A stretch of 64,000 nt of DNA. It comes from an uncultured Eubacteriales bacterium (GTDB lineage Bacteria > Bacillota > Clostridia > Lachnospirales > Lachnospiraceae). Position 1 is the first letter of the stretch; the number at the start of each line of letters is the position of its first letter. The notes beneath the pieces were generated by a model. The model worked only from the letters and a program-made list of their open reading frames with translations, did not search any database and was not told where the DNA came from. Shown in pieces: positions 19,215 through 30,713 of the stretch. The position numbers and the translations under genes are program-made. The DNA lies in contig ONPU01000001.1 in assembly GCA_900319795.1 (NCBI GenBank), forward strand, positions 124,001-188,000, read 5' to 3'.

Positions 19215-19223
19215 GGAGGGCGT

Positions 19224-19289
19224 ATGGCTCAACCGGCCGTAGACTTCCGTCTTCTTGTATTTGCGTGCCCGCGGTGCTATAATGCGTGA
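19224..19289 (+). CDS. Candidate 21-residue small ORF with CPRC motif
   Basis: The aldo/keto reductase stop codon is directly followed by a near-perfect ribosome-binding site, AAGGAGGG (19213-19220), and ATG 19224. The frame runs 21 codons and ends in TGA at 19287-19289. It would encode a short peptide with a hydrophobic middle (FRLLVFA) and a CPRC pair near the end. The 3' half overlaps the -35/-10 of the next promoter, so the coding look may be accidental. Only the strong ribosome-binding site argues for translation. Confidence 0.3.
   Translation: MAQPAVDFRLLVFACPRCYNA
19255..19283 (+). promoter_or_regulatory. Promoter of the nitrogenase-like/hyp operon
   Basis: -35 TTGTAT (19255-19260), 17-bp spacer, and a perfect -10 TATAAT (19278-19283) with an extended TG one base upstream (TGcTATAAT). 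Transcription should start near 19290, giving a leader of about 185 nt before the ACT-domain gene. Confidence 0.75.
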
Positions 19290-19415
19290 AGACAAAGCAT
19301 CTGTTCTGACCGGTCAGATTTTCTGCCGGAAAGATCCGTAATTTTAAAAGACTCCGATCCTGACGCGGAAAAGTGATTTGACGCGGAATGTCCTGGAAAA
19401 AACGACTGCGTTTTT
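19290..19415 (+). promoter_or_regulatory. Structured 5' leader with palindrome and direct repeats
   Basis: The predicted leader starts with a 12-bp perfect palindrome, CTGACCGGTCAG (19306-19317), placed where an operator or start-site hairpin would act. It also holds two copies of TGACGCGGAA (19361-19370 and 19379-19388), 18 bp apart. It ends just before a terminator hairpin. I do not recognise a known riboswitch class. A short ORF (ATG 19386, nine codons ending at the hairpin) has no ribosome-binding site. Confidence 0.45.
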
Positions 19416-19444
19416 AAGGATATCCGCTATGGATATCCTTTTTT
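19416..19444 (+). terminator. Intrinsic terminator inside the operon leader (possible attenuator)
   Basis: Perfect 10-bp stem AAGGATATCC (19416-19425) with GGATATCCTT (19431-19440), loop GCTAT, then a T run. Because it lies between a good promoter (19255-19283) and the first gene (19477), it either attenuates that operon or simply ends transcripts from upstream. Confidence 0.8.
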
Positions 19445-19476
19445 AGTAATGAACCATTTAAGAAGGAGGATGGAAC

Positions 19477-19722
19477 ATGGATACACGTATCGCGATCATC
19501 AGCATCATTCTGGACAACCCGAAATCGGTCATGCCGCTGAACCAGCTTCTTCATGACAGCAGGGAATTTATCATCGGCAGAATGGGTATTCCCTATAAGA
19601 AAAATGACATCAATCTGATTTCCGTAGCCATTGACGCGCCGGAAGACGCGATCAACGCTCTGACCGGAAAAATCGGGAAGCTCGACGGCGTCACCGCGAA
19701 GACGGTCTATTCGAAAATCTGA
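19477..19722 (+). CDS. TM1266-family iron-only hydrogenase system regulator (ACT-like)
   Basis: 81 aa, AAGGAGGA 8 bp before ATG. It reads as one small ACT/ferredoxin-like alpha-beta domain: RIAIISIILDNP, the YKKNDINLISVAIDAPEDAINALTGKIGKL block and a final GVTAKTVYSKI. This matches the TM1266-like putative regulator family, normally found beside [FeFe]-hydrogenase maturation genes (hydEFG). No HydEFG is in this window; instead it opens the nitrogenase-like operon. The ligand and target are unknown. Confidence 0.85.
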   Translation: MDTRIAIISIILDNPKSVMPLNQLLHDSREFIIGRMGIPYKKNDINLISVAIDAPEDAINALTGKIGKLDGVTAKTVYSKI

Positions 19723-19747
19723 TTTTTAAAATAAAGAGGCCCATCCT

Positions 19748-21175
19748 TTGATTGACGAACGAGAAATCAAACCGAATATCCCGGTGAAGATCCCATCAAA
19801 AGACGGCTGTGAAGCGAACATCACAGACGTTCCGTTTCCCGTGCCTTTCCCGAAAGGCCTTGTTTATGCGCCTCCGGCGAGGGGAACATGGACAATCGCG
19901 CATTCTCCGATGCTCATACCGGGCTGCCACGAGATCTATGTCTGCTGTCCCTGCTGCCTTCACGGAGTCGTACTTTCCGCGGACGAGATTCCGGACGGCG
20001 GAAACAGCCGTTTTTCCATGGTCACTTTGACAAATGAAAACGTTCTGAAGGGCGATCTGGAGGAGATGATGATCGAGGGAGTTTCCGAGGTCCTGAAGGG
20101 CCTTCCGGAAATGCCGCGGCTTGTGGAGTGCTTTACTTCCTGTGTGCAGCATTTCCTCAACATCGATCTGAAAGTGGTCTATCGCGCTTTAAGGGAACGT
20201 TTCCCGGGTACGGATTTTATTGACGGCTATATGATCCCGACCCTGGCAAGAAAACTGACACCGGACATGCTCGGCAGAAGACAGCTCCTTAGAGCCGCCT
20301 CCATGAAGAGAGCCGGGAAAGATGAGACTCTCCGGGAAAAAAGGGACCGGGCCGTAAGCCTTATCGTCAATTACTATCCGCTGGACCCGGATTCGGAGCT
20401 GAAAGAGCTGTTCGAAAAAGAAGACTATGAAGTCCGGGATTTCGCATCCTGTAAAACCTATGAGGATTATCTGGCCCTGGCGGATTCGGAATGCGCGCTC
20501 GTTTTTGTATCTGCTTCCCTTCCTGCGGCGAAGGACTTTCAAAAGCAGACCGGCATGGATTATCTTTATCTGCCCTACAGCTACAGCTTTGAGGAACTTC
20601 GCAGGGAATATCAGACATTAACAGACCGCTTCGGTCTGAACATGCCGGATCCGGAAGAATATGAACGAAGAATTACCGCGCGGGCGAGGGAAGTATCGGA
20701 GCTCTACAACGGAACTCCTCTGGTTCTGGATTATACCGCTTCACCCCGCATTCTTCAGATGGCTTTATTTCTTCTGGAGAACGGATTTCAAGTAAAGGCG
20801 GTCTATACGGACGCGTTTTCTCCGGAAGAGGAGGAAGTTTACAACGTACTTCGTGAAAAATATCCGCAGCTCCTCATCCGGTCCACGCAGCATTTTAAGA
20901 TGCGCCTCCTTCCCCGTGATGAGGGAAAGAAGGAGAAACTCATAGCCGTAGGACAGAAAGCGGCTTATTTCACGGGAACGGATCATTTTGTAAATATGAT
21001 CGAAAACGGCGCTGTTCTCAAGGGGGACAGTCAGCCGGTGCAACTATACGGATACAGCGGAATTCTGCATTTCCTGGACCTTCTTGAGGAGGCATTCTTA
21101 AGGAAATCAGACGTGAAGAGCGTCATTGAAGTCAAGGCGTTCGGATGCAGCGGAAGAATAGGAGGAGAGGCATGA
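19748..21175 (+). CDS. Nitrogenase component-1-like protein, NifD-like subunit
   Basis: 475 aa from TTG 19748 with AGAGG 8 bp upstream. The NifD/oxidoreductase component-1 fold is suggested by alternating Rossmann-like blocks and by cysteines at metal-cluster positions: C60 in IPGCHE, the unusual CCPCC run (C66, C67, C69, C70), and C132 in FTSCVQHFLNID, which occupies the place of NifD Cys154 (ECP..IGDD). The Cys275 FeMo-cofactor ligand has no counterpart by eye (CALVFVSASL), and the C-terminal YGYSG resembles NifD HGYDG without its His442 context. It is therefore not a conventional nitrogenase. It probably pairs with the next gene, whose start overlaps its stop. Substrate unknown. Confidence 0.82.
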   Translation: MIDEREIKPNIPVKIPSKDGCEANITDVPFPVPFPKGLVYAPPARGTWTIAHSPMLIPGCHEIYVCCPCCLHGVVLSADEIPDGGNSRFSMVTLTNENVLKGDLEEMMIEGVSEVLKGLPEMPRLVECFTSCVQHFLNIDLKVVYRALRERFPGTDFIDGYMIPTLARKLTPDMLGRRQLLRAASMKRAGKDETLREKRDRAVSLIVNYYPLDPDSELKELFEKEDYEVRDFASCKTYEDYLALADSECALVFVSASLPAAKDFQKQTGMDYLYLPYSYSFEELRREYQTLTDRFGLNMPDPEEYERRITARAREVSELYNGTPLVLDYTASPRILQMALFLLENGFQVKAVYTDAFSPEEEEVYNVLREKYPQLLIRSTQHFKMRLLPRDEGKKEKLIAVGQKAAYFTGTDHFVNMIENGAVLKGDSQPVQLYGYSGILHFLDLLEEAFLRKSDVKSVIEVKAFGCSGRIGGEA

Positions 21176-22395
21176 ATCAGTCACAGCGTGTTCTTTCCAC
21201 CTATGCCGCGGATCTGTTCGGCATCAGTTCCGCTCTTTACGAACTCGGCGGCCTCATCGTGATGCACGACGCGTCAGGCTGCAATTCCACTTACGGAACT
21301 CACGACGAGCCCAGATGGTATGATACTCCTTCCATGGCCTATATCTCGGGACTCAACGAAGTGGACACCATCCACGGAAATGACAAAAGACTCAGGGACA
21401 ATATAAAGGAAGCGGCATTGGAAATGCAGCCCGCCTTTATCGCGATCAGCGGAAGCCCGATGCCAAATGTCATCGGAAGCGATCTGAAGTCCGCAGCAGC
21501 CCTTCTGGAACGCGAGACGGGCATTCCGTGCATGGGGTTTCGGACAGACGGCATTCATACATATGCCGCAGGAGCGGGCGAAGCATTTCTTGAGTATGCC
21601 CGGCGCTTCCTGAAACCTGTGCCCGAAGAACAACACGGGGGTATCCGGGTGAATATCCTCGGCGTGACGCCGCTGGACTTTTCAGTGACAGGCAATACGA
21701 CCGCGATGCGTAAAATCCTTGCCGGCGCCGGCATCGAACTCATCAGCCTCTGGGCCATGGGAAGTTCTCCCGAAGAACTTCAAAGAGCGCCTTCTGCCGA
21801 TCTCAACCTGGTGGTATCGTCCGCAGGGCTTTCGGCGGCATCTTATATGGAGGCCGAATTCGGCATTCCGTATCTGTGTATGACGCCTGTCGGGAAAAGC
21901 GGTCAGGAGCTCTGGCTGCGGCTTATCCGCGAACGTGCGGCCGAAGGAAAGAGGAAAGAAAAGGGAAAACTCATTCCGTCAGGACTTTACGGCAGCATTT
22001 CCTGCTTCGGGATGTCCGGAAGGACAAAACCGGAAGAAGACGGGAAGGCGCAGGTTCTGATTATCGGTGAGCCGCTCATTTCCGAAGGGATCAAAAACTG
22101 CCTGATGACGGAATTCGGCATTGAACATGTACGAAGGATCTGTCCCCTTCCGGATCTGCCGAAAGAGGCTTACGCCGGCGCGGAAATCGTGACGCAGGAA
22201 CAGCATCTGGCCAGGGCGGCGGCATCGGCGGAACGGGTGATCGCGGATCCGATTTACGCCCGTCTTTTGCCTGAAGAAAAGAGAAAGGCGTTCATCCGCT
22301 TCCCGCACGAAGCATATTCGGGACGCCATTACAGAGAGGAGATACCGGTCTTTACAGGGAATTCATTTTCCGAATGGATCGGGGAACAATTATGA
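21172..22395 (+). CDS. Nitrogenase component-1-like protein, NifK-like subunit
   Basis: 407 aa from ATG 21172 (GGAGGAGAGG just upstream, ATGA overlap with the previous gene). C37 in HDASGCNSTYGTHDEPRW matches NifK Cys95 (HGSxGC). The partner position of NifK Cys153 is Pro in SGSPMPNVIGSDL. The HDEPRW motif recurs as FDEPRW in the fused protein at 23161-25581, so both belong to one NifK-like subfamily. Likely the beta subunit of a complex with the preceding gene; with fewer Cys ligands its cluster must differ from a P-cluster. Confidence 0.82.
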   Translation: MNQSQRVLSTYAADLFGISSALYELGGLIVMHDASGCNSTYGTHDEPRWYDTPSMAYISGLNEVDTIHGNDKRLRDNIKEAALEMQPAFIAISGSPMPNVIGSDLKSAAALLERETGIPCMGFRTDGIHTYAAGAGEAFLEYARRFLKPVPEEQHGGIRVNILGVTPLDFSVTGNTTAMRKILAGAGIELISLWAMGSSPEELQRAPSADLNLVVSSAGLSAASYMEAEFGIPYLCMTPVGKSGQELWLRLIRERAAEGKRKEKGKLIPSGLYGSISCFGMSGRTKPEEDGKAQVLIIGEPLISEGIKNCLMTEFGIEHVRRICPLPDLPKEAYAGAEIVTQEQHLARAAASAERVIADPIYARLLPEEKRKAFIRFPHEAYSGRHYREEIPVFTGNSFSEWIGEQL

Positions 22396-23168
22396 AAAAG
22401 ATTGCGATATACGGAAAAGGCGGAATCGGAAAATCGACGACGACCGCCAACCTGGCTGCCGCTCTTGCGGCGGACGGCTATAAGGTCATTCAGATCGGCT
22501 GCGATCCCAAAGCGGATTCCACAATGAACCTGCTGAAAGGGGTGCCTGTGCAGCCTGTTATGGACTATTACAGGCTCCATGACGAAGAACCCGATTTCGA
22601 ACACATCGGCCGGGAAGGATTCGGCGGTGTATTCTGCATCGAGACGGGCGGACCGACACCGGGTCTTGGATGCGCCGGACGCGGAATCATCGCTACATTT
22701 GACCTTCTGGAAGAACTGGAAGTCTTTGAACGGATCCGTCCGGATGTCGTTCTGTACGACGTCCTCGGGGATGTGGTCTGCGGAGGATTTGCCGCTCCGA
22801 TCCGGGAGGGTTATGCCGAAGAAATCCTGATCGTCACTTCGGGAGAAAAAATGGCTCTCTACGCGGCGGACAACATCAGTACCGCCGTCAGGAATTTCGA
22901 GGATCGCGGATACGCGCATGTCCGCGGCATTGTTCTCAACAGAAGGAATGTCCCTGATGAAGAGGAAAAAGTCCGTTCATTTGCCGAAAAACATGGATTT
23001 CCGATCTGCGCGGATATCCCGAGGAGCGACGAGATCAACTATTATGAAGACCGCGGAATGACCGTTATAGAAGGAGATCCGTCTTTGCCGGTCAGCCGGC
23101 TGTACATGCAATTAGCGAGAGATCTGATGGGAGACGAAAAGCCTCAGCGCGAAGGAGACCATGAATAA
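22392..23168 (+). CDS. NifH-like Fe-protein (ATP-dependent reductase)
   Basis: 258 aa from ATG 22392, inside the previous stop (ATGA); an upstream in-frame ATG at 22374 would add six residues. It has the deviant Walker A of NifH, YGKGGIGKSTTT, then IGCDPKADST, the first cluster Cys94 in GPTPGLGCAGRGI and the second Cys130 in DVLGDVVCGGFAAPIRE, equivalent to NifH Cys97 and Cys132. Two subunits would share one 4Fe-4S cluster and pass electrons, driven by ATP, to the component-1-like proteins encoded on both sides. It is the only such reductase here and probably serves both pairs. Confidence 0.93.
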   Translation: MKKIAIYGKGGIGKSTTTANLAAALAADGYKVIQIGCDPKADSTMNLLKGVPVQPVMDYYRLHDEEPDFEHIGREGFGGVFCIETGGPTPGLGCAGRGIIATFDLLEELEVFERIRPDVVLYDVLGDVVCGGFAAPIREGYAEEILIVTSGEKMALYAADNISTAVRNFEDRGYAHVRGIVLNRRNVPDEEEKVRSFAEKHGFPICADIPRSDEINYYEDRGMTVIEGDPSLPVSRLYMQLARDLMGDEKPQREGDHE

Positions 23169-25581
23169 GAATCTTCAAGAGCCCAATTATAGAAAACCGT
23201 GGAGCATCACAGCCGAAGAACTCTGTCAAGCCGGTACGGAAGGATGGCCGAAAGAGTTTTCTCAGGCGGAAGCCCTGATCTACAGCTCACCGGCTACTTT
23301 GAGCTATAATTCCCCGGGAGCAAACGGCTTCGGCGTGAAGAGAGCCGGGCTTGTTCTGCCGGAATCCGTTATGCTGCTCGTGTCTCCGGGATGCTGCGGC
23401 AGAAACAGCACGATCCTCAGCCGTGTGAGCGGCTACGCGGAGCGTATGTTCTATCTGCTTATGAATGAAACGGATCTGATCACCGGAAGGCATCTGAAGA
23501 AGATTCCGGATGCTGTACGCCGCATCTGCGACGAGGCAAAACCGAGGCCGAAAGCGGTCGTAATCTGCATCACCTGCGTGGACGCCCTCTTGGGAACGGA
23601 TCTGGAACGCGTCTGCAGAAAAGCGGAAAAGGCGGTTCCGGGAGTCCATGTGGTGCCGAGCTATATGTATGCCCTGACAAGGGAAGGCACAAAGCCGCCG
23701 ATGACATCGATCAGGAAGAGCCTGTATTCCCTTCTTGAAAGGAAGCCGGTCAATCCTCACGCGGTCAATCTGATGGGGTATTTCAGCCCGCTTTCAGATG
23801 ACTCCGAACTCTATCCGATCTTCCGCAAAGCAGGGCTCAGCAGGATCCGTGAGATCTCGCGTATGAAGACTCTGGAAGATTATATGGAAATGGGAGAGGC
23901 GAATTTCAACCTGGTTCTCCATCCGGAAGCACGCTACACGGCGGAGGATCTGCTTAAGCGTCTCGGGATGCCCTATATTGAACTCAGGCGTCTGTATGAT
24001 CCTGAAAAAATAGCGCGCCAGTACGATCTTTTCGCCGCGGCGGTCGGGATCACGCTTGAATACGGTGAATACCGCGTAAGAGCGGAAGAGGCTCTGAACC
24101 GTTTTACGGAAAAATACGGACAGCTGAGAGTCGTGATCGGACAGATGCTGAACGCGAATCCGTTTGAACTTGCGGTGCTGTTCCTTAAAAAGGGACATCT
24201 TGTGCCCCGCATCTTCGCGGTTCCGTCAGAAGAGGATCTGCCGTTTATCAAAGAGATCGCCGGACTCAGCCCTGATACTCGTATTTTCACCAGCACGCAT
24301 CCTTCCATGCTGGAGGATCCGGAAGGGATTTGTGCGGATCTCTGCCTCGGAAAGGACGCGAAATATTTCGCGCCGGAAGCAGTATGCGTGCCGTTCTCGG
24401 ACGACATTCAGCCGTTCGGCTTCCGCGGGCTCGAACTGCTTCTCGAACGGATCGATGCGGCATTGGATCAAAACAGGCGTCAGCAGTCTCCGGAACGTGC
24501 AACCGCTGCCGCGGAAACGGAATATGCCGGCGGGACAGCAGAAGAATTGGCGTACGAAATATCGGATTCCGAAAATCCGGATTATGGGTCGAACCGTCTG
24601 CTGACCAGACTGTCACCTTTTGCCCCTGATATATCGGGTGCCGCGGGCGTATTTTTCGGGCACGGAGGCGTAATTGTCATCATTGACGCGGGCGGATGCA
24701 CCGGAAATGTCTGCGGTTTCGACGAACCGAGATGGTTCAGCGAAAAGAGCGCTGTATTTTCCGCCGGCTTAAGAGATCTGGACGCCATCCTCGGAAGAGA
24801 TAAAAAGCTGATCGCGAAGATCAAAGACGCTCTTCAATATACAAACGCCCGTTTCCTTGCCCTTATCGGAACTCCGGTTCCGGCTGTCATCGGTACAGAT
24901 TTCAAAGCGCTGAAACGAATGGCTGAAAAGGAATTCGGATTGCCGGTCCTCACCGTGGACGCGAGCGGTATGGGGAGTTACGACGAAGGAGAGATCAAGG
25001 CTTACAAAGAGCTTCTGAAAGCATTTCCCGCGGATTTCGGGGCACCTTCCGTATTCGGAGCGCTGCCTCTTGATCTGCCTGGTGAAATAACAGATCTTCC
25101 GGCATTCAAAAAGAGTGTCAGAACGCTCGTTCCGGAGCATCTGAATGCAGCCGTTTCACCCGCCGGAATACGGATCTGTAAAGCCGTCAGGGATCAGGGC
25201 GGCCCGGACTTTTCCGTGGTCTTTCCTGCCAAAGACCTGATCTGCCGGATTCCGGATCATGCAGGGTCGGACATCCATTCCGCCCTTATCATTCACCAGA
25301 CAGTTTGTGCTGACAGTTTTGCCGGAAAGCTGAAAGAAGAACTCCCAGAGTGCGAAGTGGAAACGGCTACGTTCTTCACCGTTCCGGAACATGACGAAGC
25401 GCTGAGATATCCGGTTCATCCGCTTAAAGGAGAAGCGGATCTCAAAGCCCTTCTAAAGAAAAAGAACTACGATCTGGTAGTCGCCGATCCGCTTATAAAA
25501 CCCGCGGTCGAAGGGCATGCGCGCTATTTTCTGCCGCTTTCCCATTTCGCGGTATCCGGGTCAGCGGCGGCACAGCAGTAA
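23161..25581 (+). CDS. Fused nitrogenase component-1-like protein (NifD-like plus NifK-like)
   Basis: 806 aa, overlapping the NifH-like gene by 8 bp. Residues about 1-435 resemble the NifD-like protein encoded at 19748-21175 (C78-C79 in VSPGCCGRN, C136/C139 in ICITCVDALLGTDLE, and a C-terminal FGFRG). Residues about 436-475 are a Gln/Ala/Glu-rich linker. Residues about 480-806 resemble the NifK-like protein at 21172-22395: IDAGGCTGNVCGFDEPRWF (C513, C518) and GTPVPAVIGTDFK, again with Pro at the NifK Cys153 position. The operon thus carries two D/K-like pairs, one split and one fused, recalling NifDK (catalytic) with NifEN (scaffold). The role assignment is inference. No frameshift is seen at the junction. 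Confidence 0.85.
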   Translation: MNKNLQEPNYRKPWSITAEELCQAGTEGWPKEFSQAEALIYSSPATLSYNSPGANGFGVKRAGLVLPESVMLLVSPGCCGRNSTILSRVSGYAERMFYLLMNETDLITGRHLKKIPDAVRRICDEAKPRPKAVVICITCVDALLGTDLERVCRKAEKAVPGVHVVPSYMYALTREGTKPPMTSIRKSLYSLLERKPVNPHAVNLMGYFSPLSDDSELYPIFRKAGLSRIREISRMKTLEDYMEMGEANFNLVLHPEARYTAEDLLKRLGMPYIELRRLYDPEKIARQYDLFAAAVGITLEYGEYRVRAEEALNRFTEKYGQLRVVIGQMLNANPFELAVLFLKKGHLVPRIFAVPSEEDLPFIKEIAGLSPDTRIFTSTHPSMLEDPEGICADLCLGKDAKYFAPEAVCVPFSDDIQPFGFRGLELLLERIDAALDQNRRQQSPERATAAAETEYAGGTAEELAYEISDSENPDYGSNRLLTRLSPFAPDISGAAGVFFGHGGVIVIIDAGGCTGNVCGFDEPRWFSEKSAVFSAGLRDLDAILGRDKKLIAKIKDALQYTNARFLALIGTPVPAVIGTDFKALKRMAEKEFGLPVLTVDASGMGSYDEGEIKAYKELLKAFPADFGAPSVFGALPLDLPGEITDLPAFKKSVRTLVPEHLNAAVSPAGIRICKAVRDQGGPDFSVVFPAKDLICRIPDHAGSDIHSALIIHQTVCADSFAGKLKEELPECEVETATFFTVPEHDEALRYPVHPLKGEADLKALLKKKNYDLVVADPLIKPAVEGHARYFLPLSHFAVSGSAAAQQ

Positions 25582-25604
25582 AAGACGGAGATCACATTTT
25601 CAAA

Positions 25605-27953
25605 ATGACACATACGGACACAGTCAGAAAAAGGATCAAGCTGTACGGAATCGTGCAGGGAATCGGGTTCAGGCCTTTTGTAAAAAGGCTTGCCGATGAA
25701 CTGCGCGTCAATGGCTCCGTATGCAATCACGGATCCTTTGTGGACATTGTTGCCGAAGCGGACCTAAAGATCATTGAGGAGTTCGAAAGAAGGCTCATTG
25801 CCGATGCTCCTCCCGCTTCGCATATCGTACGGACAAAGGCCGTTCCTGAGGAGCCTCTGGGCGAAACGGAATTTCTGATCGTGAAAAGCCGTAAAGAAAG
25901 AGGAGATATCTATGTCTCTCCCGATCTGGCCATCTGTCCGGAGTGCGAGAAGGAACTGTTTGATCCCGGAGACCGCCGGTATCTGCATCCGTTTATCAAC
26001 TGCACGAACTGCGGGCCCAGGCTGACAATTCTGGACTCCATGCCTTATGACCGGGAACGAACCTCCATGGCGGAATTCCCGATGTGTGAGAAATGTTCCT
26101 ATGAATACACGCATCCCGAGAGCCGGCGCTTTCACGCCCAGCCCGTCTGCTGTCATGACGACGGTCCGAAGCTGAGGATCCCCGGAACCTCCCTTAGTGA
26201 AGAGGAATGCATCCGGGAAGTCAGAAGGATCCTGAAAAACGGAGGAATCGCGGCTGTCAAAGGGATCGGAGGATTTCATCTGGCCTGCGACGCTTCCCGG
26301 GACGATGCGGTCTTAAGGCTCAGAACACTGAAAAACCGTCCCATGAAGCCTTTCGCGGTGATGATGAGAGATATGGAGACGGTACGGAGAGAATGCGTGC
26401 TTCTGCCGGGACAGGAAGAGCTTCTCACAGGCTCCGAAAAGCCGATTCTGCTCCTGGAACGGCGCACGGACGGAGGGCAGAAGCTTTCAAATCTGATCGC
26501 CCCGGACAATCCGACTGTCGGTGTGATGCTCCCATATGCGCCCGTACAGCATCTGTTGTTCCGCTATCCCGCGGAAGGAGAGACAGAACCCGCGGATGAC
26601 GGATTTACAGACATGCTGGTAATGACATCCGGCAATCCGTCGGGCGCGCCCATCTGCCGGACGACAGAGGAAGCTGTGGAATATCTTTCGCCGATGTGCG
26701 ATGTCATCCTCGGCAACAACCGGAAAATCCGGCTTCGGGCAGATGATACCGTCATGCGCTTCGCGGACGGAAAGCCTTATATGATCCGAAGATCCAGAGG
26801 GTATGCTCCGCTGCCTCTTACCGTTGAACCGGAAGATCTCCCGGGATTTAAAGCCGGCGGGGATCGGCAGACCCATACGGTGCTCGCAATCGGCGGAGAA
26901 CTGAAGAATACGTTCTGCCTGGCGAAAAACGATCTTTATTATATGTCTCCCTATGTAGGAGATCTCGGGGATCCGAGAAGTGTGGACGCCCTTCAGGCCG
27001 CGGTTGAGCGGATGGAAACTCTGCTGGAAATCAAGCCGGAAGCGGTTGTCTGCGATATGCATCCATTGTATAATTCTTCTGCATTTGCGAAAGAACTCGG
27101 AATTCCGGTTATCGAGATTCAGCATCACTACGCCCATATCCTGAGCTGTATGGCGGAAAATGCTTATCTTGAGCCGGTGATCGGCGTATCCTTCGACGGA
27201 ACCGGTTACGGAACGGACGGAACCATCTGGGGAGGAGAATTCCTCTACTGCCGTACGGACCGTTTCGAAAGAGCCGGCTTCCTGAAGCCTTTCCGTCAGG
27301 CCGGCGGAGATCTGGCGGCAAAAGAAGGCTGGAGGATCGCGGTATCCCTGATGCTGGATGCGTTTGAAGATGCGGCATATGCCGAAAATATAGCGGCGGA
27401 CCTGGGTATCTGTTCAAAGGAAGAATTCCGCATCCAACGGATGATGGTCGAAAAAGGCCTGAACTCCGTGAAATCGACCTCCGCCGGAAGGCTTTTTGAC
27501 GCCGTATCCGCTGTTCTGGGAATCCGGAGAGCCTCCACATTTGAAGGAGAGGCCTCTATTGCGCTTGAATATGCCGCCGAACCGGACATATCGGAAATCG
27601 CCGAAATGGGAATTGACGAAGGAGAAGAATTCGCAATCAAAACCGATGAGCTGATCCGGGCGCTGATCCGGGGACGTATGGAAGGGAAGAGTACTTCTTG
27701 TCTGGCCGGAGGGTTTCATACCGCTTTGGCCGGGGCCGTTCTCAAAGGCTGCCGCCTCATGAGGAACCGCTATCATGTGGAAACGGTCGCCCTGTCCGGA
27801 GGCGTATTTCAGAACATGCTGTTCCTTGATCAGGTGAGGACCATGCTCGGAAATGACGGATTCCGCGTACTCGTTCATTCACAGGTTCCCGCGAATGACG
27901 GGGGCATTGCTCTTGGGCAGGCAGTATACGGAATGAACTACTTGTTGACATAA
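25605..27953 (+). CDS. hypF: Carbamoyltransferase HypF
   Basis: 782 aa. Domains in order: acylphosphatase (GIVQGIGFRPFVKRLADEL, about 15-95), zinc-finger pair (CPEC about 111, CTNC about 133, CEKC about 161, then C182-C183-H-D-D186), a YrdC-like domain (GGIAAVKGIGGFHLACDA ... KNRPMKPFAVMMR), and a Kae1-like domain (HHYAHILSCMAE, FDGTGYGTDGTIWGGEF, ALSGGVFQNMLF). It carbamoylates the HypE C-terminal Cys as the source of the CN ligands of [NiFe]-hydrogenases. The last zinc-finger Cys of the family (CPxCGP) is Asp186 here, possibly compensated by C182 or H184. It lies 23 bp after the fused component-1-like gene. Confidence 0.95.
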   Translation: MTHTDTVRKRIKLYGIVQGIGFRPFVKRLADELRVNGSVCNHGSFVDIVAEADLKIIEEFERRLIADAPPASHIVRTKAVPEEPLGETEFLIVKSRKERGDIYVSPDLAICPECEKELFDPGDRRYLHPFINCTNCGPRLTILDSMPYDRERTSMAEFPMCEKCSYEYTHPESRRFHAQPVCCHDDGPKLRIPGTSLSEEECIREVRRILKNGGIAAVKGIGGFHLACDASRDDAVLRLRTLKNRPMKPFAVMMRDMETVRRECVLLPGQEELLTGSEKPILLLERRTDGGQKLSNLIAPDNPTVGVMLPYAPVQHLLFRYPAEGETEPADDGFTDMLVMTSGNPSGAPICRTTEEAVEYLSPMCDVILGNNRKIRLRADDTVMRFADGKPYMIRRSRGYAPLPLTVEPEDLPGFKAGGDRQTHTVLAIGGELKNTFCLAKNDLYYMSPYVGDLGDPRSVDALQAAVERMETLLEIKPEAVVCDMHPLYNSSAFAKELGIPVIEIQHHYAHILSCMAENAYLEPVIGVSFDGTGYGTDGTIWGGEFLYCRTDRFERAGFLKPFRQAGGDLAAKEGWRIAVSLMLDAFEDAAYAENIAADLGICSKEEFRIQRMMVEKGLNSVKSTSAGRLFDAVSAVLGIRRASTFEGEASIALEYAAEPDISEIAEMGIDEGEEFAIKTDELIRALIRGRMEGKSTSCLAGGFHTALAGAVLKGCRLMRNRYHVETVALSGGVFQNMLFLDQVRTMLGNDGFRVLVHSQVPANDGGIALGQAVYGMNYLLT

Positions 27954-27983
27954 AAAAGTTATGTAAAGAAAGAAGGGGTTATT

Positions 27984-28190
27984 ATGTGTGTCGGACTTCC
28001 CGCAAAGGTAGTAAAGATGAAAAACGGAACCGCCGTGGTAGACGCAACGGGAGCGAAGAGGGAGATTTCCACCGAACTGCTCACGGATGTGCACCCGGGT
28101 GATTATGTAATGGTTCACGCCGGCATGGCGATCGCGAAGATCACGGCGGATGACCAAAGCGAGACAGAAGAAATTCTGGCTGCTTTCTGA
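27984..28190 (+). CDS. hypC: Hydrogenase maturation chaperone HypC
   Basis: 68 aa, AGAAGGGG before ATG. It begins MCVGLPAKVV, keeping the essential Cys2, and has the family's central VDATGAKREIS and the DVHPGDYVMVHAGMAI block. With HypD it holds the Fe(CN)2CO group during assembly. It is positioned between hypF and hypD as in many hyp operons. Confidence 0.95.
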   Translation: MCVGLPAKVVKMKNGTAVVDATGAKREISTELLTDVHPGDYVMVHAGMAIAKITADDQSETEEILAAF

Positions 28191-28203
28191 AAGGATATCG
28201 TTC

Positions 28204-29247
28204 ATGATGAAAGTAAATCAGAAAGCACTTGAGATGATTCAAAACTACAGCGGCAGTCCCGTCCGGATTATGGAGGTATGCGGAACACATACCCACGCGA
28301 TCTTCGAGCATGGAATCCGGAGCGTCCTGCCGGACCGGATCAAACTGATCTCCGGGCCCGGATGTCCGGTCTGCGTGACGGAGACGGACTATATTGACGA
28401 AGCGGTCTGGCTGGCGCTTGAGAAAGGCTGCGTGATCACCACTTTCGGAGACCTCGTGCGTGTTCCGGGAACCGAGATGTCCCTTGCGGGAGCGAGAGCT
28501 CACGGAGCGGACATCCGTACGGTCTACACGCCTCTGGACGCTGTGGAGATTGCCGTCAAAGAACCTGACAAACAGGTTGTGTTCCTTTCGGTCGGCTTTG
28601 AAACGACCGTTCCGATATCCTGTCTGGCTGTTCAAAAAGCGAAGGAAAGAGGGCTGACGAATTTTTCGCTGCTTACCGCCAATAAGACCATGGATGAAGC
28701 ATACAGGGTTCTGAAGGGCTCTGCCGACGCGTTTCTCTTTCCGGGACATGTCAGCACCTATACCGGCATGCAGATCTACAGAGATCTCGCCGAAGAGGGC
28801 ATTTCCGGCGCTGTATGCGGATTTACGGCCGACGAGATCCTGACCGCGATTGCCGTCATCCTGGTAAAGCTTCAGGAGAAGAAGCCGTTTGCCGTAAACT
28901 GTTATACAAGAGTGGTGACGGAAGAAGGAATGCCGGCAGGACGTGCTTTGGTTGAAAAAATGATGCAGCCCTGCGCCGCGCGCTGGAGAGGCATCGGGGA
29001 GATTCCCGGTTCCGGTCTGATGCTGCGTCCTGAATACGAGGATTTCGACGCGCGCATCAAGTATCAGATGCCCCATATTGAGGGACATCCGAATCCCGCG
29101 TGCCGCTGCGGCGAGATCCTGATGGGCAAAGTCAAGCCGTTTGAGTGTCCGCTCTTCGGAAAAGTCTGCACTCCGGAGCACCCGGTAGGGGCCTGCATGG
29201 TCTCTTCGGAAGGAACCTGCTCGGCCTATTACAAATACAGTATTTAA
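28204..29247 (+). CDS. hypD: Hydrogenase maturation protein HypD
   Basis: 347 aa from ATG 28204 (a second ATG follows at once; AAAGG about 9 bp upstream). Signature segments are complete: IMEVCGTHTHAIFEHGI (thiol redox/iron-binding Cys), SGPGCPVCVTE, TTFGDLVRVPGT, and the Cys-rich C-terminus with ACRCGEILMG, CPLFGKVC and ACMVSSEGTCSAYY for the 4Fe-4S cluster. HypD and HypC form the scaffold on which Fe(CN)2CO is built. All motif cysteines that I can place are present. Confidence 0.96.
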   Translation: MMKVNQKALEMIQNYSGSPVRIMEVCGTHTHAIFEHGIRSVLPDRIKLISGPGCPVCVTETDYIDEAVWLALEKGCVITTFGDLVRVPGTEMSLAGARAHGADIRTVYTPLDAVEIAVKEPDKQVVFLSVGFETTVPISCLAVQKAKERGLTNFSLLTANKTMDEAYRVLKGSADAFLFPGHVSTYTGMQIYRDLAEEGISGAVCGFTADEILTAIAVILVKLQEKKPFAVNCYTRVVTEEGMPAGRALVEKMMQPCAARWRGIGEIPGSGLMLRPEYEDFDARIKYQMPHIEGHPNPACRCGEILMGKVKPFECPLFGKVCTPEHPVGACMVSSEGTCSAYYKYSI

Positions 29248-29265
29248 AATGATGGAGAACTGACA

Positions 29266-30270
29266 ATGAATGACTACATCACGCTGGCGCACGGTGCCGG
29301 CGGAAAACAGACGAATGAACTGATCGGCGGGATTTTCAGAAAATATTTTGAGAATCCGTATCTGACAGCGGATGATGCCGCGGTACTGCCCGAAATCAAA
29401 GGGCGGATCGCGATGACTACGGACGGCTTTATCGTATCCCCGCGCTTTTTCCCGGGAGGCAACGTCGGAAGACTTGCCGTATGCGGAACCGTCAATGACC
29501 TGGCCTGCATGGGCGCGAAACCTCTCTATATGACGGTCTCCTGCGTGATCGAAGAGGGATTTTCGATTGCGGAGCTGGAGGAAATCGTAAAATCGCTCGC
29601 GGAAACAGCCGAAGAAGCGGGTGTCAATGTAGTGGCCGGTGACACGAAGGTGGCCGGAAAAGGACAGGTAGACGGTATCTTTATTACGACAGCCGGTGTC
29701 GGCGAGGTTCAGGAAGGTACGGATCTTTCGGGCGCCAACGCGGCTCCCGGGGATGTGATCCTTGTAAGCGGCGATATCGGCCGTCACGGTGGAACGATTC
29801 TTCTGGCCAGAGACGACTACGGAATCGAAGCGGATCTTACGAGTGACGACGCTCCGCTGAACCATCTGATGGAAGAGATGATTGCCGTTACGAAGGACAT
29901 CCATGTCATCAGAGACGCGACACGCGGCGGAGTGGGCACGGTTCTTTACGAGATCGCCTCTGAGAGCCATGTCGGTGTAGAGATCGAACGAGACAGCATC
30001 CCCGTTGATCCGTCGCTTGCGGGCGTCTGCGGCATGCTGGGGCTCGAACCGCTGTATCTCGCATGCGAGGGACGCTTCGTTGTCATTGCTCCCGAACAGT
30101 ATAAGGATCAGCTGCTTGAAGTAATGCGCGCAGGGAAATATTCCGCGAATGCAGCCTGCATCGGAAAGATCATTCCCGAACATGAGGGACGCGTGGTCGT
30201 CACCACCTCTATAGGAGCGAGGACATTGCTTCCTCCGCCGGGCGGAGAGCTCCTTCCGAGAATCTGCTGA
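29266..30270 (+). CDS. hypE: Hydrogenase expression/formation protein HypE
   Basis: 334 aa. PurM/ThiL-like ATP-binding fold: LAHGAGGKQTNELI, TTDGFIVSPRFFPGGNVG, VVAGDTKVAGKG and DATRGGVGTVLYEIA. It ends in PRIC, the conserved C-terminal Cys that is carbamoylated by HypF and dehydrated to a thiocyanate. HypF, C, D and E are all complete here, so CN synthesis and the iron scaffold could be functional, while HypA/HypB (nickel insertion) and a hydrogenase are not in the window. The operon ends here: the next promoter starts 20 bp downstream. Confidence 0.96.
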   Translation: MNDYITLAHGAGGKQTNELIGGIFRKYFENPYLTADDAAVLPEIKGRIAMTTDGFIVSPRFFPGGNVGRLAVCGTVNDLACMGAKPLYMTVSCVIEEGFSIAELEEIVKSLAETAEEAGVNVVAGDTKVAGKGQVDGIFITTAGVGEVQEGTDLSGANAAPGDVILVSGDIGRHGGTILLARDDYGIEADLTSDDAPLNHLMEEMIAVTKDIHVIRDATRGGVGTVLYEIASESHVGVEIERDSIPVDPSLAGVCGMLGLEPLYLACEGRFVVIAPEQYKDQLLEVMRAGKYSANAACIGKIIPEHEGRVVVTTSIGARTLLPPPGGELLPRIC

Positions 30271-30289
30271 ATATTTGTTGAAAAACTGC

Positions 30290-30318
30290 TTGCACAGGCT
30301 ATTTTCCTGTGTTAAAAT
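30290..30318 (+). promoter_or_regulatory. Promoter of the rplU-prp-rpmA operon
   Basis: -35 TTGCAC (30290-30295), 17-bp spacer, -10 TAAAAT (30313-30318). Transcription would start near 30325, giving an 80-nt leader before rplU. It restarts transcription right after the hyp genes. Confidence 0.75.
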
Positions 30319-30325
30319 ACCTGAG

Positions 30326-30407
30326 TGTGCCGCACGGAGAGGCTATAAGTGCGTTCATTTTGACGCCGCCGCATCCGGCGAGTATTGTGAAGAAGGAGGA
30401 GCAAAAC
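30326..30407 (+). ncRNA. Probable ribosomal protein L21 leader
   Basis: The 80-nt leader between the rplU promoter and ATG has short pairable elements (GTG/CAC near 30327-30335, and CGCCG 30364-30368 with CGGCG 30376-30380) and ends in AAGGAGGA. In Bacillota this position carries the L21 leader, an autoregulatory RNA. Assignment is by position and structure only, since I could not score a covariance model. Confidence 0.45.
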
Positions 30408-30713
30408 ATGTATGCAGTGATTGCTACCGGCGGAAAGCAGTACAGAGTTTCTGAGGGTGATGTAATCCGTGTAGAAAAACTCGGAGTCGAGAAGGGCGAG
30501 AAGGTTACATTTGACAACGTTCTTGCTATTGGCGGAGACGCATTCAAGGCCGGCGAAGATGTGAAGGACGCGACAGTCGAAGCAGATGTCATCAGCAACG
30601 GCCGCACCAGAAAAGTGATCGTGTACAAGTATAAGGCAAAGACCGGTTATCATAAGAAAAACGGCCACAGACAGCATTATACGGCAGTAAAGATCACAAA
30701 GATCAACGCCTGA
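30408..30713 (+). CDS. rplU: 50S ribosomal protein L21
   Basis: 101 aa from ATG 30408 with AAGGAGGA 7 bp upstream. MYAVIATGGKQYRVSEGD, RVEKLG, the GRTRKVIVYKYKAKTGYHKKNGHRQ segment and the C-terminal VKITKI are the L21 signature. The frame is open upstream, but only this start has the ribosome-binding site and family N-terminus. Confidence 0.98.
   Translation: MYAVIATGGKQYRVSEGDVIRVEKLGVEKGEKVTFDNVLAIGGDAFKAGEDVKDATVEADVISNGRTRKVIVYKYKAKTGYHKKNGHRQHYTAVKITKINA

Follow-up and report, generated by a model that had tools for sequence, protein, structure and literature searches.

A nitrogenase-like gene cluster joined to hypFCDE as a probable route to the [FeFe]-hydrogenase H-cluster without HydG

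Introduction

What is an operon for that joins nitrogenase-like genes to the Hyp machinery of [NiFe]-hydrogenase maturation? One such operon lies at 19477–30270 on the + strand of the window, by which we mean the whole 64,000-nucleotide (nt) stretch of contig ONPU01000001.1 that was analysed, from an uncultured Eubacteriales bacterium. It comprises nine genes, all on the + strand: a TM1266-type regulator gene, nflA, nflB, nflH, nflD1K2, hypF, hypC, hypD and hypE, where nfl marks the nitrogenase-like members. A preliminary description made from the letters alone had named this gene set and order, with short gaps or overlaps between neighbours, and both hold: open reading frames (ORFs) as delimited mechanically are spaced by -41 to +30 nt, and the nflA/nflB and nflB/nflH junctions become 4-nt ATGA overlaps once the starts conserved in relatives are used (M10 of the nflB ORF and M7 of the nflH ORF, giving starts at about 21172 and 22392). 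The operon start had been placed at 19255, where no gene begins; the first gene begins at 19477. From comparative sequence analysis we propose, with a probability of roughly 0.8, that the operon takes the place of HydG and matures the H-cluster of [FeFe]-hydrogenases without it.

Hyp proteins build the Fe(CN)2CO unit in [NiFe]-hydrogenase maturation: HypF and HypE turn carbamoyl phosphate into cyanide (CN), which HypC and HypD then join with carbon monoxide (CO) on iron. For the H-cluster, the accepted origin of the CO and CN ligands is HydG. This enzyme splits tyrosine to both and makes an Fe(CO)2CN synthon destined for HydE and HydF (PMC9431212). The preliminary description had suggested that the nitrogenase-like complex may build or use an iron centre with CN and CO ligands. 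Building is now supported, as hydE and hydF stand in the operons of many relatives and HydG is missing, and use has become less likely; for the same reasons, the centre built is most likely the [2Fe] subcluster of the H-cluster. In many gut and rumen bacteria that have an [FeFe]-hydrogenase and lack HydG, the nfl–hyp cluster probably makes CO and CN by a second route.

The module recurs with hyp, hydE and hydF genes

We searched the 295 genomes of a same-order sample with the fused protein NflD1K2 and read the neighbourhoods of strong matches, which placed the module in three families (f1, f8 and f11). The f11 operon opens with TM1266-HydF-HydE, HydF scoring 556.7 bits (cut-off 325.55) and HydE 561.6 bits (cut-off 254.6). 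A scan of GTDB contigs returned 504 pattern matches, 499 of them relatives, and the best 80 of these 499 were kept as loci. The kept loci came from Ruminococcus albus, R. bicirculans, many rumen Ruminococcus and Oscillospiraceae and some Lachnospiraceae, and also from Lentisphaeria and one Synergistaceae metagenome-assembled genome. For 50 of the 80 loci the genomes were searched genome-wide; two of these repeat same-order module genomes, so 16 same-order and 50 further genomes amount to 64 distinct module genomes.

The recurrent gene order was TM1266-hydF-hydE-nflH2-nflA-nflB-nflH-nflD1-nflK2-hypF-hypC-hypD-hypE, with some loci lacking hydF or hydE. Conservation was counted in the 39 of the best 80 loci that extend at least 8.5 kb before and at least 7.5 kb after nflD1. 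All 39 contained nflA, nflB, nflH, nflK2, hypC and hypD; the TM1266-type gene and a second NifH-like gene were each present in 38, hypF in 37, hypE in 36, hydE in 29 and hydF in 24. The preliminary description had left it to relatives to show whether hyp genes stay beside the nitrogenase-like genes, and by these counts they do. Using tblastn on the best 80 of the 499 loci, we detected HydE in 50 and HydF in 36, and HydG in none (best 87 bits, against self-scores of about 950–1020 for the four queries). Some loci are rearranged, with hypE between nflA and nflB (L088, L098) or hypC-hypD between nflB and nflH (L119). In genome G238 (L052, L037, L180) the module is scattered: nflH stands with a fused D1K2 gene, hypF-hypC-hypD with nflA about 15 kb off, and nflB near hypE on another contig; a second HypD adjoins an Ech-like [NiFe]-hydrogenase gene.

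Other nitrogenase-like genes had to be told apart from the module. Loci L031, L032 and L054–L059 hold other nitrogenase-like HDK sets, nearer nflA than nflD1 in the tree, and the neighbours of the sets in L031 and L032 match parts of FecCD/BtuC-type ATP-binding cassette (ABC) transporters. Eight same-order genomes (G026, G067, G156, G161, G166, G185, G264 and G279) contained only ABC-transporter-linked nitrogenase-like genes, 25–31% identical to the fused protein, and were scored module-negative because these genes form a separate group in the tree. One genome, G151, was scored module-positive on nflA and nflB alone.

HydG is absent from genomes with the module

HydG exceeded its cut-off in 134 of the 295 same-order genomes, in 0/16 same-order module genomes and in 0/50 of the further ones (0/64 distinct). 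The same-order sample has 157 HydE-positive genomes; HydG accompanies HydE in 131 of the 141 that lack the module and in none of the 16 that have it (Fisher p = 1.8e-15, with no correction for kinship). HydE itself was over its cut-off in all 16 same-order module genomes, and the H-domain of HydA (PF02906) was matched in 16/16 same-order, 49/50 further and 63/64 distinct module genomes. The cleanest same-order case is G269, a single contig rated 100% complete, which has the module, HydA and HydE and from which both HydG and the [NiFe] large subunit are absent. Two strains of R. albus, KH2T6 and AR67, carry the module and lack HydG; a third strain, R. albus 7, produces H2, and two [FeFe]-hydrogenases are in use in it (PMC6776011).

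The window genome, rated 82% complete, follows the same pattern. It encodes HydE (544.5 bits, cut-off 254.6) and HydF (513.9 bits, cut-off 325.55) in tandem on a contig other than that of the nfl–hyp operon, a location that hid them from the preliminary description. Its HydA belongs to group A6 (FeFe_hydrog_A6, 890.3 bits, cut-off 765) and has the three H-cluster motifs TSCSPGW, MPCTAKKFE and EIMACPGGCINGGGQP. Searches of this 82%-complete genome for HydG and for a [NiFe] large subunit found neither.

We also considered ThiH moonlighting as HydG, which is unlikely: in 12/16 same-order and 27/50 further module genomes, no match to a lyase of the HydG or ThiH type passes E 1e-30.

The nitrogenase-like proteins differ from known nitrogenases

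All four nitrogenase-like proteins match PF00148 or PF00142 and fall far under the equivalog cut-offs of the nif, bch and cfb families. NflA (19748..21175), an alpha-like component-1 subunit (PF00148, 46.7 bits), keeps Cys66, Cys70 and Cys132 in 66/66 aligned rows. Its predicted model (predicted local distance difference test 83.2, predicted template modelling score (pTM) 0.86) indicates a nitrogenase component-1 fold, and the 50 PDB matches listed for it are all nitrogenase, NifEN, methylthio-alkane reductase or dark-operative protochlorophyllide oxidoreductase (DPOR) chains. At the C-terminus of NflA (window 21139–21175), Cys467 is present in 66/66 rows and is paired in 64/66 rows with a second Cys, which is Arg in the window protein; that the C-terminal Cys could carry a ligand is purely a guess. 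NflB (21172..22395; mechanical ORF from 21145) is a beta-like component-1 subunit (PF00148, 114 bits) with His41-Asp42 and Ser44-Gly45 invariant across 27 rows. NflH (22392..23168; mechanical ORF from 22374) is a NifH-like ATPase (PF00142, 295.5 bits) that reaches E 1.1e-83 at best in profile comparison with nitrogenase Fe proteins; it keeps the P-loop and both of the cluster cysteines noticed earlier, Cys100 and Cys136, which are the Fe-protein cluster cysteines by motif and occur in 78/78 rows.

NflD1K2 (23161..25581) is an 806-residue fusion of a NifE-like part, about residues 1–455 with a cut point of our choosing, and a beta-like part, together matching PF00148 in two stretches (142.5 bits). 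Fused in the window, nflD1 and nflK2 are two separate genes in most relatives mapped. The best NCBIfam model is nifE, at 96.5 bits against a cut-off of 505.1, and we therefore filed the protein as NifE-like, not as NifE. D1 is closest to NifE by profile, and the D1–NifE alignment keeps the two alpha-side P-cluster Cys positions that it covers, the third lying outside it. At the position aligned with the cofactor-side Cys of NifE, both D1 and NflA have other residues. The top PDB fold match of the NflD1K2 model is fused NifEN 9i0g (template modelling score 0.37), with an overall confidence (pTM 0.56) too low for reading a cluster site. Scores against the remaining equivalogs were likewise below the cut-offs: nifH 298.1 bits (394.35), nifD 58.2 (653.55), nifK 25.2 (427.3), BchB 70.8 (490.35), BchL 205.5 (345.15), CfbC 295.6 (402) and methan_mark_13 40.2 (268.4), with the BchN cut-off not reached either.

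These scores bear on whether the operon might be an N2-fixing nitrogenase or its cofactor assembly. Homology to NifH and component 1 points that way, as does a NifB-like protein (E under 1e-50) in 22/64 module genomes, R. albus strains among them. Yet every score is far below the nif cut-offs, the cofactor-side Cys positions of NifE hold other residues in D1 and NflA, and NifB is over its cut-off in 1/64 module genomes (counted in the 22) and has no match in the window genome. This account is practically out of the question, and we regard nitrogen fixation as ruled out by the sub-cut-off nif scores, the replaced cofactor-side Cys and the lack of NifB in the window genome. The 22 genomes imply that some module genomes also carry nif-type genes, and their NifB-like proteins probably belong to a separate nif set.

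A complete Hyp set mostly without a [NiFe]-hydrogenase

The operon begins with a TM1266-type putative regulator of [FeFe]-hydrogenase systems (19477..19722; TIGR03959, 105.7 bits, cut-off 60.8), whose His26 and Lys75 are kept in 61/61 aligned rows, and ends with four hyp genes. Complete Hyp motifs had been noted at the outset, and all four products exceed curated cut-offs: the carbamoyltransferase HypF (25605..27953; TIGR00143, 725.1 bits, cut-off 466.1), the chaperone HypC (27984..28190; TIGR00074, 71.7 bits, cut-off 48), the Fe-S scaffold HypD (28150..29247; TIGR00075, 384.8 bits, cut-off 192.8) and HypE (29266..30270; TIGR02124, 411.3 bits, cut-off 251.6). The TIGR00075 match starts at residue 19 of the hypD ORF, and a real start near 28204 is probable by eye. 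Key cysteines are retained, Cys2 of HypC in 66/66 rows and the C-terminal Cys of HypE in the window, where the protein ends in -PRIC, and in 55/55 relatives; in known HypE, the last Cys bears the thiocyanate. No HypA or HypB gene was found in the window operon.

A second suggestion of the preliminary description was that the complex might assist an unlinked [NiFe]-hydrogenase. On this reading, HypFCDE would mature that enzyme and the nitrogenase-like proteins would help. As the main purpose this fails: the [NiFe] large subunit (PF00374) is absent from 8/16 same-order module genomes (the window genome and G269 included), from 47/50 further ones and from 55/64 distinct ones, and [NiFe]-hydrogenase maturation as the purpose is thereby ruled out, most plainly by the one-contig G269. 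Some module genomes do fit the idea, with PF00374 matches in the other nine, RxCxxC and DPCxxC in all four of these that were inspected, and the module's HypD as the only HypD in 5/8 searched genomes with an Ech-like [NiFe]-hydrogenase. Against it, G238 has its second HypD beside its [NiFe] gene, and the missing HydG would go unexplained. We consider the idea very improbable. Genomes in which an Ech-like [NiFe]-hydrogenase is accompanied by no HypD but the module's may use these Hyp proteins for both systems. In G075, genes that resemble hypA and hypB are, by eye, the only hyp genes of the Ech cluster over the 10.9 kb read; with the five genomes that have a sole HypD, this context suggests that the standard unit is probably still what the module's Hyp proteins produce.

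Trees suggest repeated replacement of HydG

D1 forms one clade of 32 rows with support of 100/100, spanning records from Bacillota, Lentisphaerota and Synergistota and lying apart from NflA and from the ABC-transporter-linked relatives. HydE behaves differently. We built a HydE tree of 49 rows, for which every third of 46 operon-borne HydE sequences was taken, and found the HydE of module genomes scattered among those of HydG-positive genomes, with five label changes, at least three of them forced by well-supported branches. For the HydE of family f8, of G269/G173, of G238 and of the window genome, the operon-borne HydE of Ruminococcus are in each case more distant than HydE from HydG-positive or other genomes. 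Because the module is one clade and its HydE partners are scattered, these trees indicate that the module replaced HydG several times. That diverse HydE proteins pair with either HydG or the module suggests that the module gives HydE the same kind of substrate.

The HydE CxxxCxxC motif was kept in 49/49 rows. No ligand-specialised HydE was seen, the HydE of module genomes being interleaved with those of HydG-positive genomes and sharing this motif with them.

A proposed route to the H-cluster ligands

From the gene content we infer a possible order of steps by which the module would make H-cluster ligands. HypF and HypE would draw on carbamoyl phosphate for cyanide, which HypC and HypD would build into an Fe-CN/CO unit. 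NflH, spending ATP, would drive electrons into two nitrogenase-like alpha–beta pairs; of these, the NifE-like D1/K2 pair is the probable scaffold receiving the Hyp unit, and the A/B pair would be the catalyst. Together the pairs would convert the Hyp unit to an Fe(CO)2CN-type synthon accepted by HydE and HydF. Their input would most likely be CO, obtained by reducing CO2, along with reducing power; ligand exchange or editing is the other option. Members of the nitrogenase family use ATP to act as strong reductants, and both Fe proteins and nitrogenases are capable of reducing CO2 to CO. Since the H-cluster wants more CO and less CN per iron, this reducing power is the ground on which we propose the Nfl proteins as CO source or ligand exchanger.

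We hold the detailed chemistry tentatively, and would sooner expect it to be revised than upheld. If it were right, the H-cluster would be reached by two chemically unrelated routes; in the second, Hyp would give iron-bound cyanide, and a nitrogenase-like pair would make CO from CO2, or swap CN for CO, on a NifEN-like scaffold; the cofactor systems of nitrogenase and of the [NiFe]- and [FeFe]-hydrogenases would thus converge in one pathway, a picture we find possible and somewhat short of probable. In a variant of it, the hydrogenases of module genomes would bear an H-cluster with altered ligands.

Several observations weigh against the replacement of HydG by the module. The Hyp product Fe(CN)2CO carries two CN and one CO as against one CN and two CO in the HydG product, which means that a ligand must be added or exchanged, and we know of no enzyme for CN or CO addition or exchange that turns Fe(CN)2CO into a HydG-type product. 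HydA matches are weak in G287, G305 and G328 (E 1e-23 to 1e-25), and the module genome G316 has no HydA match. D1 was not found in the module-positive G151. With the window genome at 82% completeness, its lack of HydG and of a [NiFe]-hydrogenase is weak when taken alone. HydE was counted genome-wide in the same-order sample, and HydF in the loci and the window genome; the H2 physiology comes from R. albus 7, and the genomes searched were those of KH2T6 and AR67. The nine PF00374 matches (9/64; 47–51 bits, covering only positions 1–69 of 508) also count here, together with HypB, the nickel GTPase, which is over its cut-off in 10/64 module genomes, among them the window genome and three more that lack a [NiFe] large subunit. 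The HypB-like proteins of the window genome are encoded by two tandem GTPase genes (L174:9865-11185) in a cobalamin cluster that also encodes CbiB, a tetrapyrrole methylase and CobW. Tandem HypB-like genes are also present in G084, G135, G151 and G238.

A last point on the same side is that 10 HydE-positive genomes have neither HydG nor the module, which means that HydG loss has other causes or substitutes. Four of the ten belong to genus g42 and six are others, some of them incomplete. In g42 (family f17) there is no HydG and no match to the nitrogenase-like module, and at L149:9047-13298, L150:6949-11200 and L151:3623-8529 the genes TM1266-hydE-hydF are followed closely by a 580-residue B12-binding radical S-adenosylmethionine (SAM) gene of family DUF4080. 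This gene is perhaps another HydG substitute.

The ten genomes lend some weight to the view that the module is a separate nitrogenase-like enzyme with an Fe-CN/CO cofactor and substrate of its own; hydE and hydF would be linked to it through common regulation or iron supply, and some other route would make up for the lost HydG. Two alpha–beta pairs, joined in most relatives by two NifH-like proteins, resemble the layout of nifHDK plus nifEN, and another nitrogenase-like enzyme acts in isethionate assimilation (PMC11423573). Such an enzyme would nevertheless leave unexplained both the absence of HydG from 64/64 module genomes and the presence of hydE and hydF in so many of the operons, and we judge it unlikely. 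Still more doubtful, in our estimate, is that the operon does no more than assist H-cluster assembly, for example by bridge-ligand supply, repair or regulation, with CO and CN being adventitious or coming from an unrecognised lyase. HydF matured with HydE and without HydG did give about 1% activation from trace CO and CN in work cited in PMC9431212, and the B12-type radical SAM gene near hydE-hydF in g42, which lacks both HydG and the module, would suit this view. A mere accessory, however, sits poorly with a complete hypF-E-C-D cyanide machinery in the operon, mostly with no [NiFe]-hydrogenase to serve, and with the many module genomes in which no HydG- or ThiH-type lyase match passed E 1e-30.

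Operon leader and flanking sequence

The operon is preceded by a 262-nt leader (19215..19476, + strand) with a promoter-like site and a terminator-like hairpin before the first gene. The former is an extended -10 element, TGCTATAAT, at 19275-19283, read by eye and absent from the motif-scan list; the latter, a hairpin with a T-run at 19416-19440, lies directly 5' of the TM1266-type gene. Across the window, terminator-like sites numbered 26 versus 12.5 in shuffles. RNA folding of 19290-19480 gave z = -3.0, and there were no Rfam matches in 15000-36000. The leader segment upstream of the 19416-19440 hairpin could pair with it, and the structured leader may be an attenuator. Directly 3' of the operon, 30309-30713 reads by eye as ribosomal protein L21, with promoter-like sites at 30278-30318.

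Discussion

In the open-licence literature of PubMed Central, we found no description tying nitrogenase-like and hyp genes to H-cluster assembly; if confirmed, the nfl–hyp system would combine known protein families in a pathway of no known kind. Missing hydG has been noted in some acetogenic Clostridium and explained otherwise (PMC9431212). Were a common group of rumen and gut H2 producers to form the H-cluster with the module in place of HydG, H-cluster chemistry would have evolved at least twice. The nitrogenase superfamily would then help to build a further organometallic cofactor, and [NiFe]-hydrogenases would no longer be the only clients of the Hyp proteins. Such a replacement would also bear on the source of CO when Hyp maturation proceeds anaerobically, allow [FeFe]-hydrogenases to be made in engineered cells by a route that needs no tyrosine, and provide a maturation target in bacteria that feed H2 to rumen methanogens.

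The nfl genes themselves have probably been seen before. In 2012, Coprococcus catus and Dorea longicatena were noted to have NifHEN-like genes in two sets that lie close together, the P-cluster-like cysteines numbering two on the alpha and one on the beta side, with no function given in that passage (PMC3464626). Likened by description, these pairs are probably the same nfl genes; unlike the present account, the passage gives no connection to hyp genes, hydE/hydF or HydG (PMC3464626).

Among better-characterised systems, DPOR (BchLNB), CfbCD and methylthio-alkane reductase likewise combine a NifH-like ATPase with component-1-like subunits, and predicted folds match. The nfl proteins differ from DPOR and CfbCD in scoring under the BchB, BchN, BchL, CfbC and methan_mark_13 cut-offs and in their gene context; to methylthio-alkane reductase the likeness is one of predicted fold only, and gene context differs there too. 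The NifEN scaffold is resembled in that D1 is nearest NifE by profile, two alpha-side P-cluster Cys positions align, and the alpha–beta fusion of the window recalls fused NifEN 9i0g, the latter by a low-confidence model. The module departs from NifEN in that NifB is missing from most module genomes, the cofactor-side Cys is lacking and the genes are linked to hyp and hyd genes. With the HypABCDEF pathway the operon shares HypF, HypC, HypD and HypE, all over curated cut-offs and with conserved cysteines; it differs in having no HypA or HypB in the window operon, no large subunit in 55/64 module genomes and a junction with nitrogenase-like genes. A further comparison is with the HydEFG pathway, which it resembles in the presence of HydE and HydF (in the operon of many relatives, on another contig in the window genome), in HydA as the target and in the TM1266 regulator family, and from which it differs in that, with HydG absent from 64/64 module genomes, HypFCDE and nitrogenase-like proteins stand in HydG's place.

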